Source: Watersipora subatra (taxonomy: Eukaryota > Bryozoa > Gymnolaemata > Cheilostomatida > Watersiporidae). From it: a stretch of 64,000 nucleotides of DNA. This document shows, piece by piece, positions 3,394 to 57,887 of the stretch. A program made the translations under genes and the position numbers. How positions within the stretch are numbered: position 1 is the first letter of the stretch; every line of letters starts with the position of its first letter. The stretch is from contig NC_088717.1 of NCBI RefSeq assembly GCF_963576615.1, positions 57,491,526-57,555,525 on the forward strand, given 5' to 3'. A model generated the notes under the pieces. That model searched no databases and had not been told where the DNA came from. It saw only the letters and a program-made list of their open reading frames with translations.

Positions 3394-5600
3394 ATGGCAA
3401 TCTGGGGAGACACATTTTTGGGTTATGAACATGGCAATACAAGCTGGTTTAGCAGTACTGTAGTTTATATATATATATGGTAATAATTATAAAGTAATAA
3501 CAATATATTATTTTGGACTGCAGAAAAAATTGGTTAATGCTGCATATACACTAATAAAATCGATTTAACATTTTTATGTTTTGAACTTTTTGGATTCAAA
3601 CTTGATTATATTTAAAATATCATTTGCTCAAAGATGTGAAACTTATTTTAATGACTGACTGAAAATACTTTAAAGTTTCAATTTTAATATACGTATCTAG
3701 AATACTTGCGAAAACGTAGTCGTAAACATGATCGTTAAGTTTTTTTTAAATCATCAATCAAAATAGTTTGTTAAATTATAATAGTATGATGGAAGGTCTC
3801 TCCTTTACTCTGTTGCATACTTACTAAATTAGACTGTATCTTATGTAGAACACCTAAATATACATTTGTTACGTGACAAAGATAGTTTTATATTGTCAGC
3901 ACTCTCATGTATCACAGTGTTAAAACAGTTTGTAGGAGTGAACAGAAATAGTAATTCTATAAGTAAGTTTGGATTAAATAATGTATTTTGGTTGCAGCTG
4001 ATAATATCAACATTAGTTTCATATTGTCTTTTTACTGACACCTAATTAATCACATATTTCAAACTGATATGTACCAGAAAACTATTGTTTTATCAACTTT
4101 AGGGTTAAAAATATGTGTAACCAAAGATAAACTGAGAATACTATTTCTATTGTAGAATGTTGTTAGTTGTGCTTGTCTTCTCCTTGCTGACTGGTGTTCA
4201 TGCTGGATACGAGCGGTCATGTTCGGCGGAGGACTACAACCTATCCTCTCTCAGCTTCGACTGCCAAAATGATTTTCTGAGAAACCTTTAGGAAGTCTAC
4301 AGTGATGAAGGTTGGTTATAAACATTACATAATTGCATATTTGTGGGACAATTTTCTGTTGGTACAGATGCTGTGCAACAGGTGTGTTTCATTTTCTATA
4401 AATACTTAAACATGTAACAAAAGCTATGTCTACACTAACACATTAGCTTATATTAGTTTCTTTTCTATTAAAGATATTTACTTATATTTTTTGACACCTT
4501 CTACACAACTTTCAACAATAAACAAAGCTAATATTAAGTTGTGAGGACAGTGAACAGTAAATAAGGCCATGAATCATACATTACCTGGCACTAGACTCTT
4601 TTCTGATTGGCTGCCAGAATAGAAAATGCATAAAAAAACTGAAAAGATTACATTGGATTTTAACTGATTGTACCACTTGTTTAGGAATGTCTGATAATCA
4701 TAACTAACTTATTCTGAACGACCAGTTAACAGAGATATCACAAACTTCAGCCAATTGTATGCTAGGTTACTAGTGAGCTAAGAGATAGATAAATGCTATT
4801 CAGGTCCTGTATCAACAGACTATATAAATTTACTGAAAGAATATAAGTCTTGAGTAATATCTTAACGCTAGTCAGCGAGTTGATTAGAAGGTAAGTTGAG
4901 GTAAGTAAGGTAAGTAAGGTAAGTTGTCTATTGAAGCTGAGCTGTAAACAGGTTGTCTTTTTTGGCCATTCAGTGAGCTGCTTAAGAACAAGTTGAGTTT
5001 TAACGCTGGTCAGCAACCTGACTAAAAGACAACTTGTCTCTTAAAACTAGTTCGGAAATAGTGTAATAAAAATTGATTTAGCTGAAAATATATTCAAGGT
5101 TGGGTGGTATTACTCGTCATTTCTTGTTAGAAACTTAGCTACAGGTGCACTTACCATGAAGAACAGATGGTACAGCACTTCAATTATGTTAATCAAACTT
5201 ATCTATCGTATAGACAAGAATAATGGTGTTCATCGGAACAATCAGCAGATGTTAGAGTCTGTTTGACATTCAGATGTTGAACAGTGTGAAATTATCAATA
5301 TGTAGCTTTCTATAACTTTAATAGAAAGCAGTTTTTTATAACGCAAAAATAAAGGGAGTTTCTGTGTATTTCAATACAACTTTAATTTGTTAACCAAGTA
5401 CTGCTATGCAGAGATTTTGTTTTTTCAAATCAAGTTATTCTATATTTATATTTGCAGCCAGGCAAAAGAGTTCTCCATTCACAAGTTGTTCTGCGGCTCA
5501 CAGATTCCTGCGAAAGAAGCGATCAGAAACAGAAAGTGGTATTTGGTGCGAGTGTTGTATTCACTCACGTACTTCAACGGAACTGGCAGCTCATTGCTGA
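3394..5600 (+). pseudogene. Insulin-like peptide gene 1, pseudogene
   Basis: Three segments align with ILP genes 2 and 3: 3394-3422 (proposed exon 1), 4156-4310 (signal peptide and B chain) and 5458-5600 (C peptide and A chain). The signal peptide reads MLLVVLVFSLLTGVHA and the A-chain region GIWCECCIHSRTSTELAAHC. It is broken in several independent ways: the exon 1 donor has TT where the others have GT; a TAG at 4289-4291 stops the B chain; the last B-chain cysteine is tyrosine; the first dibasic site is KS instead of KR; and an A-chain cysteine is arginine. Acceptors and the phase-1 second intron are still visible. A (CT)n tract has expanded in its 3' flank. A functional product is very unlikely. 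Confidence 0.85.
4311..5457 (+). other. Intron 2 of ILP pseudogene 1; nothing recognised
   Basis: The 1147-base intron is longer than that of gene 2 (267 bases). Its 3' end (about 5310-5457) resembles the end of gene 2's intron. A short direct repeat (gaggtaagtaaggtaagt) lies near 4898. No gene, element terminus or structured RNA was seen. Confidence 0.5.
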
Positions 5601-5760
5601 TTTATCCACAGACATGTAAACTAGCTCTTAAAACATTGCAGAGACTTGTGTTGTTGTCTGTCATACCTATGCTTGTATCTCGCCTCTTGACTTATACATA
5701 ATATTCTCATGCCATAAACTAGATAGAGAGATATAATATAGCAATAAGAGTTCAGCAGCA

Positions 5761-6246
5761 ACTTCTCTCTCTCGCTCTCTCTCTCTCTCTCTCTCTCTCT
5801 CTCTCCTCTCTCTCTCTCTCTCTCTCTCCTCTATCTCTCTCTCTCTCTCTCTCTCTCTCTCTCTCTCTCTCTCTCTCTCTCTCTCTATCCTCTCTCTCTC
5901 TCTCTCTCTCTCTCTCTCTCTCCCTCTCTCTCCCTCTCTCTCCCTCTCTCTCCCTCTCTCTCCCCTCTCTCTCCCTCTCTCTCCCTCTCTCTCCCTCTCT
6001 CTCCCTCTCTCTCCCTCTCCCTCTCTCTCCCTCTCTCTCCCTCTCTCTCCCTCTCTCTCCCTCTCTCTCCCTCTCTCTCCCTCTCTCTCCCTCTCTCTCC
6101 CTCTCTCTCCCTCTCTCTCCCTCTCTCTCCCTCTCTCTCCCTCTCTCTCCCTCTCTCTCCCTCTCTCTCCCTCTCTCTCCCTCTCTCTCCCTCTCTCTCC
6201 CTCTCTCTCCCTCTCTCTCCCTCTCTCTCCCTCTCTCTCCCTCTCC
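5761..6246 (+). repeat. (CT)n and (CTCTCTCC)n pyrimidine tract
   Basis: About 490 bases of almost pure pyrimidine, first (CT)n, then a regular eight-base CTCTCTCC repeat. In gene 2 the same position (about 9205-9225) has only a short pyrimidine run, so the tract expanded in unit 1 alone. The arginine/glutamate ORF on the - strand is an artefact of the repeat. Confidence 0.97.
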
Positions 6247-6276
6247 CAACTTCTGTATGTTTTTATTTTGATAGTA

Positions 6277-56560: not shown

Positions 56561-56564
56561 TAAA

Positions 56565-57678
56565 TGAAATGTCTATTTGCCCTATTTCTTGCTTTTTTCA
56601 CTTCCGGTATTTGAATTGTTCATTATTAAAAATTTCATCAAATTCCTGGAGATGGCCATTAGGGCCAGAAAGGGCTGTAATCCCTTTCTAGACAGGTCTG
56701 CTATACGGTGAGGCATAGCTGTTGGGTTCAGTCTACATACAACAGTTTTGTTAGCAACATTTTTTCAACAAGACCAGTAATTAACCTAGTCATACTGAAA
56801 CTACTTCTATCAATCGTTGCTGTTCGGGATGTCAGTTTATGGCTATATTTTTATTGACCTTCTGACCTTTTGTCTGTCAAATTTGTCTTTATAATAACAA
56901 CTCTCACTCCAAGTTTCTATACAGGACATTGCAGCAAGGCTTTAAGTAGCTCTCGTAACAACCTTGACACTATTCTCATTCCTTTCTTAGGTGGGTGTGT
57001 TCGCAAATACGCTGACATCAAAAGATTTTTAAGTGTATTGAGAATTGTCACTAATATATAAGCCACTAATATCTAATTGTCACTAAGTGTCACGAGTTGT
57101 CACTAATATTTAAGGACTGTATTTCACCTTTGTATCTTATCATCTTTTATCCTTGGCTCTTTCATAACTAGCCAAACAAAAATCTTATATGCTTCTGGAA
57201 GCACCAGGTTAACATCTGGATGTGTAGCGATTAAGTTACATATTGTTACTGACTCAAACTAGAGCTTCCACATTTTGGCGATTTACCTATTCAGTGATGA
57301 TTTTCAAGGTAGACAATTTGAAACCGTCTACTTTGAAGACCGGCCATCTAGTCTTATAATGAGGCCATTGCATGGCGTTCGGACAATCATGGAACAAATG
57401 TTTCTAGTTGTCACGAACACAAAACAGTTTCTTTTTAAGTTAAAATATACAAAAATATTACCAACAATTTACAAGTCTTTTTTACGTAATAATAATATCG
57501 CAAATAGTCTATTTGCAATATCAAAATGTCTGGTGATTTTTTAAAATCCTGAAGCTCTAGTCTAAACTTTATGCTGTATGACAAAACTTCGCTATTTCGA
57601 GTTTAAACAGGTGGTGTTAAAATGGCCGATTATAGAATGTTGGGTCATTCTACTAACTGTATTTGAAACTGCTTGCAG
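56565..57678. other. Intron of ILP gene 4, 3' part
   Basis: 56640-56715 repeats 49722-49800. The + strand ORFs at 56870 and 57275 (63 and 89 codons) show no known motif and no support for being exons. Confidence 0.4.
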
Positions 57679-57887
57679 GTCGTCAAACAAGTCGATTGAG
57701 ATACAAACGAAGCTTGAAAAGTGCATCGCCATTCCGAAGTGCATCTAAAGCCCATGAGTTTTTGCAATCGAAGCAATCAAGGGTGAAGAGGTCGCTGTAC
57801 CGGAATCGAGGTCCTCTCTGTGAATGTTGCATAAACAGATGCAACACAGAGGAGATGCTTGAATATTGCCCTCTCATGTATTTGTGA
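57679..57887 (+). CDS. Insulin-like peptide gene 4, C-peptide and A-chain exon
   Basis: It follows a gcttgcag acceptor and joins in phase 1 to the donor at 47760, giving ...ERG-RQTSRLRYKR. Dibasic RYKR and RVKR sites bound a C peptide that keeps the core of genes 2 and 3 (SPF-x-S-x3-AH-x-FL; here SPFRSASKAHEFL). The A chain reads GPLCECCINRCNTEEMLEYC, with the CxCC-x3-C-x8-C pattern, then PLMYL and TGA. With 47608-47759 it supplies eight cysteines and all processing sites, so the gene appears functional. The intron is about 9.9 kb and filled with repeats. Confidence 0.85.

Follow-up and report, generated by a model that had tools for sequence, protein, structure and literature searches.

Insulin-Like Gene Families and the Locus Studied

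Two-chain hormones of the insulin family are secreted and, via receptors of the insulin type, influence growth, metabolism or reproduction; the bombyxins among them carry six cysteines. Insulin-like families have multiplied in several animals, and it is often unclear if the additional copies serve separate functions. The present study concerns a tandem array of insulin-like genes, the tail of which lies in a 64,000-nucleotide stretch of DNA (the window), bases 57491526-57555525 of a genome of 783.7 Mb in 239 contigs. Position p corresponds to genome base 57491525+p, and zero or negative positions lie upstream of the window. The array, mosaic and probably in part homogenized, very likely consists of genes for insulin-like prohormones with eight cysteines, of the type of the molluscan insulin-related peptides.

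Molluscan insulin-related peptides (MIP type) share with this array the cysteine motifs of both chains, the basic cleavage sites and the order signal peptide-B-C-A (PMC5996578, PMC9221753). The array differs from them in comprising 14 loci within 130 kb, some neighbors differing mainly in the core of the B chain; three precursors are described for the scallop of PMC5996578. Starfish multinsulins likewise form small clusters of several insulin-related genes, the ambulacrarian octinsulin has eight cysteines, and multinsulin and octinsulin genes share the phase-1 intron in the C domain (PMC8286064). The array genes additionally have a phase-2 intron inside the region coding for the signal peptide; a phase-2 intron is also present in dilp7 and multinsulin genes. 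The silkmoth bombyxin family resembles the array in comprising many insulin-related genes that are much alike (PMC8149454), but bombyxins are insect peptides.

The eight-cysteine layout is not novel, as it is already known in molluscs and their kin: the A motif CxCCx3Cx8C and the B motif Cx(9-14)Cx11C have been described for eight-cysteine insulin-like peptides (PMC5996578), the A motif is given as a signature of molluscan insulin-related peptides, with four disulfide pairings proposed (PMC9221753), and the layout is the usual one for insulin-like peptides of molluscs and for at least one from a brachiopod (PMC5996578, PMC9221753). Because the eight-cysteine motifs and gene features match those of these published families, we infer that the host is probably a lophotrochozoan. 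A literature search returned no description of this array, which is a weak negative.

The Eight-Cysteine Frame and the Extent of the Array

A six-frame scan of the window for the A-chain pattern CECC-x3-C-x8-C gave four plus-strand matches, at 8992, 18046, 38082 and 57819, which belong to the loci denoted g2, g3, g5 and g4, respectively; another locus, g1, lacks one A-chain cysteine. In 200 dinucleotide shuffles of the window, the pattern never occurred, and its CxCC form occurred in one. The B-exon pattern, defined as C-x13/14-C-x11-C followed 3-4 codons later by a phase-1 GT, had five matches compared with a shuffle mean of 0.155 (at least one match in 27 of the 200 shuffles); the B exons of g2, g3, g5 and g4 account for four of these matches. 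The remaining one (28232, plus strand, with a phase-1 GT) has an extra cysteine in its core and is probably a chance match, because an A-chain partner is absent. An Rfam scan of the window returned nothing at gathering thresholds. In 10,000 bases of a 17,566-base contig of the genome, inspected as a mitochondrial candidate, there was neither an Rfam match nor, among the frames listed, a recognizable mitochondrial gene.

A first-pass annotation of the window had listed four plus-strand insulin-like loci with an eight-cysteine layout. All four exist (g1, g2, g3 and g4), and the outer limits given for them are exact, position 3394 being the ATG of g1 and 57887 the end of g4; g5, however, had been missed, so that the window has five loci and the array 14 or more. 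The layout itself is borne out by the A-chain matches, set against none in the shuffles, and by the frame Cx13-14Cx11C plus CECCx3Cx8C, which is present in all 11 distinct open precursors of the array (the signal start of g4 and g5 was not located).

The region scanned for the whole array covered 314 kb, i.e., the window plus 150 kb on its upstream side and 100 kb on its downstream side. It contains 14 insulin-like loci, all in tandem on the plus strand and spanning 130,055 bp when measured between the outermost A chains: five lie in the window, and nine further plus-strand copies (u1-u3 and m1-m6) lie upstream, up to 73.5 kb away. The expanded and diverging cluster proposed in the first pass is thus real and larger than claimed. 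Twelve loci are open in the modeled exons and two are dead (g1 and m4, the latter with stops in the B chain and a disrupted exon 3); a truncated relic of a fifteenth copy is also present. The copies u2 and u3 lie within 8.22-kb units that are ~100% identical over the aligned stretch (about -67700 to -51250), which are either very recent or an assembly duplication; u3 repeats u2, leaving 11 distinct open precursors. No more CECC-type A chains were found in the ~74 kb beyond the exon-1 candidate of u1 or in the 106 kb beyond g4. A minus-strand CxxCC match at -88858, from the pattern search of the 314 kb, was set aside as unrelated.

Gene Structure and Predicted Precursors

Both g2 and g3 have three exons and are open throughout: a coding exon 1 of 29 nt is followed by a phase-2 intron, an exon for the signal peptide and B chain, a phase-1 intron and an exon for the C-peptide and A chain. 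Intron 1 is of phase 2 in the copies with a modeled exon 1; a homologous exon 1 was modeled in eight copies, seven of which have a GT donor (the dead g1 does not), and u1 and u2 have a conserved exon-1 candidate, MAMSQGLQL. The phase-1 intron called in the first pass recurs as intron 2, within the C region, in every modeled gene, in g5 only with the third AG of the acceptor; such an intron is described as typical of insulin-like genes (PMC8286064). The same annotation was right in reporting one dead copy, g1, the lesions of which are given in Table 1, and a distant copy with a 9.9-kb intron, which is g4 (intron 47760-57678, 9,919 bp).

The open genes are predicted to encode a signal peptide, a three-cysteine B chain, a C-peptide region between basic sites and a five-cysteine A chain. 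Inspection by eye placed two basic cleavage sites around the C-peptide in 10 of the 11 distinct open precursors; g5 lacks the second. Convertases would cut the KR and RKKR-type sites, four disulfides would join the A and B chains, and the product would be secreted and signal via an insulin-type receptor.

Divergence Between Copies

The contrast between chains is clearest in u1 and u2, the A cores of which are identical, whereas the B cores share 3 of 11 residues. Along this pair, the end of intron 1 has diverged by 3% and the signal half by 2%, compared with 30% for the B chain; farther downstream, the values are 11% for the beginning of intron 2, 14% for its middle and 1% for exon 3. The pair is close to a natural chain-swap experiment: because the A chain is common and the flanks are nearly identical, whereas the B core is not, comparing the two would isolate the role of the B chain.

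For g2 and g3, protein identity is 91% over the C segment (23 codons) and 29% over a 14-codon stretch around the B core; their conserved C-peptide, SPFTSYAAAHRFL, offers a second testable point. The description of these two in the first-pass annotation, as intact copies with very different B chains, is correct but incomplete, since g3 appears mosaic. Within its exon 2, identity to both g1 and g2 falls from ~88% to ~50% over ~40 bases near the first B-chain cysteine. Because this drop is abrupt, g3 looks like a mosaic, its 5' part resembling the other copies and the remainder being older, rather than like a simply fast-evolving gene; accelerated evolution of its B chain alone was rejected on the same ground and because the synonymous divergence (dS) is high as well.

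Of the 10 pairs tested, five have a B chain that exceeds the two flanking introns, taken together, in divergence (p<0.05), namely u1-u2 (p = 5.7e-9), g2-g3, m1-g2, m1-m6 and m1-m2; the other five (m2-g2, m6-g2, m3-m5, m3-g2 and m1-g3) have no significant excess. In the three pairs that m1 forms with g2, m6 and m2, intron 1 is 31-40% divergent compared with 36-38% for the B chain, and the excess is due to intron 2 alone; in g2-g3, the start of intron 2 is 33% divergent compared with 41% for the B chain. Most pairs besides u1-u2 show a weaker contrast for the B chain or none.

Purifying selection on the exon encoding the C-peptide and A chain is evident in each of the four pairs examined, as shown by nonsynonymous vs. 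synonymous counts of 16/107 vs. 19/31 for g2-g3 (p = 1e-6), 25/120 vs. 18/33 for m1-g3 (p = 3e-4), 4/108 vs. 6/30 for m2-m6 (p = 0.007) and 3/107 vs. 5/31 for m3-m5 (p = 0.014), in Fisher tests that assume independent sites, an assumption violated by gene conversion, and with several pairs sharing one gene. For the B chain, the two rates do not differ significantly in any of the four pairs tested (p 0.33-1). The nonsynonymous divergence (dN) of the B chain is 0.32-0.63 in divergent pairs, and its dS is 0.30 in u1-u2 (counts for this pair omit the last B codon) and 0.64-0.91 in the other divergent pairs; dN/dS does not exceed ~1. In u1-u2, the dN and dS of the B chain are about equal, so that recombination or retained old tracts account for the pair at least as well as positive selection does.

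Interpretation of the Array

Several results weigh against the assignment of the array and against a divergence focused on the B chain. Comparison with the insulin-family profile, the check suggested in the first pass, gave a divided outcome: the cut-off of 23 bits for Pfam PF00049 was exceeded by three of the 10 precursors scanned (g4 24.8, u1 25.3 and u2 23.3), whereas the other seven were under it (m2, m6, g2, m3 and g3 at 13-18 bits, m1 and g5 unlisted), in a set that left out m5, contained g2, g3 and g4 without exon 1 and gave g2 a V in place of the I at its exon junction. A PDB sequence search with g4 had no insulin among its matches. Convincing first exons were not found for g4 and g5, and g5 may be degenerate or decaying, because its A-chain frame requires a third-choice acceptor AG and its A chain lacks a preceding dibasic site. 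Finally, u1-u2 is the only pair of the 10 tested in which the B chain is clearly more divergent than both flanking introns. Apart from these results, NCBIfam scans of g4 and g3 gave no matches, and an exon-by-exon genome search with PF00049 was uninformative, as its 0 matches excluded even the genes of the window and its 14 controls.

The array presumably grows through tandem duplication and may be partly homogenized by gene conversion, with certain B-chain cores remaining distinct or diverging, which would provide several distinct hormones per animal. How the B cores came to differ can be explained in different ways. An even chance may be given to a reading without special function, in which patchy gene conversion and unequal crossing-over have left behind old tracts, allelic or paralogous, and the B surface is weakly constrained: the abrupt drop inside exon 2 of g3 relative to g1 and g2, the reach of the u1-u2 divergence into the 5' part of intron 2 and the rise of dS alongside dN all point to it, although the divergent tract covers the B core in both u1-u2 and g2-g3, which random placement would seldom bring about (a judgment, not a computed value). 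Positive diversifying selection on the receptor-binding face, driven by separate receptors or an arms race, is the reading implied in the first pass, which proposed separate receptors or roles; it is somewhat unlikely. It would fit the retention of the cysteine frame while the B core changes next to identical A cores (u1 and u2), the B-chain dN of the divergent pairs and the five pairs with a significant B excess, but B-chain dS is raised too, dN/dS does not rise above ~1, none of the four B-chain tests is significant, three of the five significant pairs involve m1, their excess stemming from intron 2 alone, g2-g3 has 33% divergence at the beginning of intron 2 compared with 41% in the B chain, and the remaining five pairs have no significant excess. 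Doubtful, too, is a dedicated system of B-chain diversification, in which conversion keeps the signal peptide, C-peptide and A chain uniform and selection keeps the B cores different, yielding combinatorial hormones tuned to receptors or contexts; selection that maintains B-core differences against conversion would be the more interesting reading, if true.

Two further explanations concern the copies as such. That most of them are decaying or silent duplicates around one working hormone gene is improbable: two of the 14 loci are plainly dead, one relic is truncated and the features of g5 are doubtful, yet 12 loci have neither stop nor frameshift in the modeled exons, and purifying selection acts on the C-plus-A exon wherever tested. 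An assembly artifact, suggested by the near-perfect identity of the u2 and u3 units, is very unlikely to account for part of the copy number, the remaining open precursors all being mutually different and the five loci of the window likewise. Because B-chain dS is also raised in the divergent pairs, the pattern of the B chain fits old tracts, retained or recombined, with loose constraint on the B surface, better than it does a demonstrated case of positive selection. As judged from its sequence, the array represents a sizeable, notable tandem expansion of a hormone gene of known kind, and its mosaic divergence falls on the B chain in the clearest pair.

Coordinates and Neighboring Sequence

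Table 1. Exons of the loci in the window and positions of the upstream copies (window numbering)
Feature	Position	Strand	Remarks
u1, u2, u3	-73458, -65085, -56864	+	Upstream copies
m1, m2, m3	-38142, -32352, -26008	+	Upstream copies
m4, m5, m6	-17602, -13937, -8731	+	Upstream copies; m4 dead
Truncated relic of a fifteenth copy	Exon 1 at -10941; signal half of exon 2 at -10063 to -9978		Ends before the B chain
g1 exon 1 remnant (pseudogene)	3394..3422	+	Donor broken: TT where sister copies have GT
g1 exon 2 remnant, signal and B chain	4156..4310	+	In-frame stop; last B-chain Cys to Tyr
g1 exon 3 remnant, C-peptide and A chain	5458..5600	+	One A-chain Cys to Arg
g2 exon 1	7948..7976	+	MAIRKETCL + GG; donor gtatga, phase 2
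g2 exon 2	8481..8635	+	Remaining signal peptide and B chain; phase-1 donor
g2 exon 3	8903..9045	+	Dibasic site, C-peptide SPFTSYAAAHRFL, tetrabasic site, A chain, stop
g3 exon 1	16346..16374	+	MSIRKETCL + GG
g3 exon 2	17330..17484	+	Signal and B chain, highly unlike that of g2; identity falls near 17400
g3 exon 3	17951..18117	+	C-peptide SPFTSYAAAHRFL as in g2, A chain, stop
g5 B-chain exon	31312..31462	+	C-x13-C-x11-C; donor gtaaga, phase 1; 5' boundary less sure (phase-0 acceptor)
g5 A-chain exon	38011..38156	+	KGKR site, CECC-x3-C-x8-C, stop
g4 B-chain exon	47608..47759	+	C-x14-C-x11-C; phase-1 donor
g4 exon 3	57679..57887	+	C-peptide region and A chain, stop

The intron of g5 contains a Mariner-type transposase in two open pieces (33470-34493, minus strand; Pfam Transposase_1 and HTH_48). 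The last codons of g5 lie in a 263-bp stretch (38129-38391) that recurs 6 kb downstream at 44327-44589 with 98.9% identity and adjoins ACGT-rich microsatellites, and a 21-bp tandem repeat of 32.6 copies with 95% matches lies near the start of the g4 intron (47958-48641). The left end of the window (1-1359) and the interval between g2 and g3 (13973-15419) share a dispersed two-piece duplication of 99% and 93% identity. Beyond g4, an open frame at 59732-60328 on the plus strand belongs to the P2X7 intracellular domain family (Pfam PF20478, E 1e-13), and ~102 kb downstream of the array, at ~160388 on the plus strand, lies an exon of a HECT ubiquitin ligase, which we take to resemble UBE3A.

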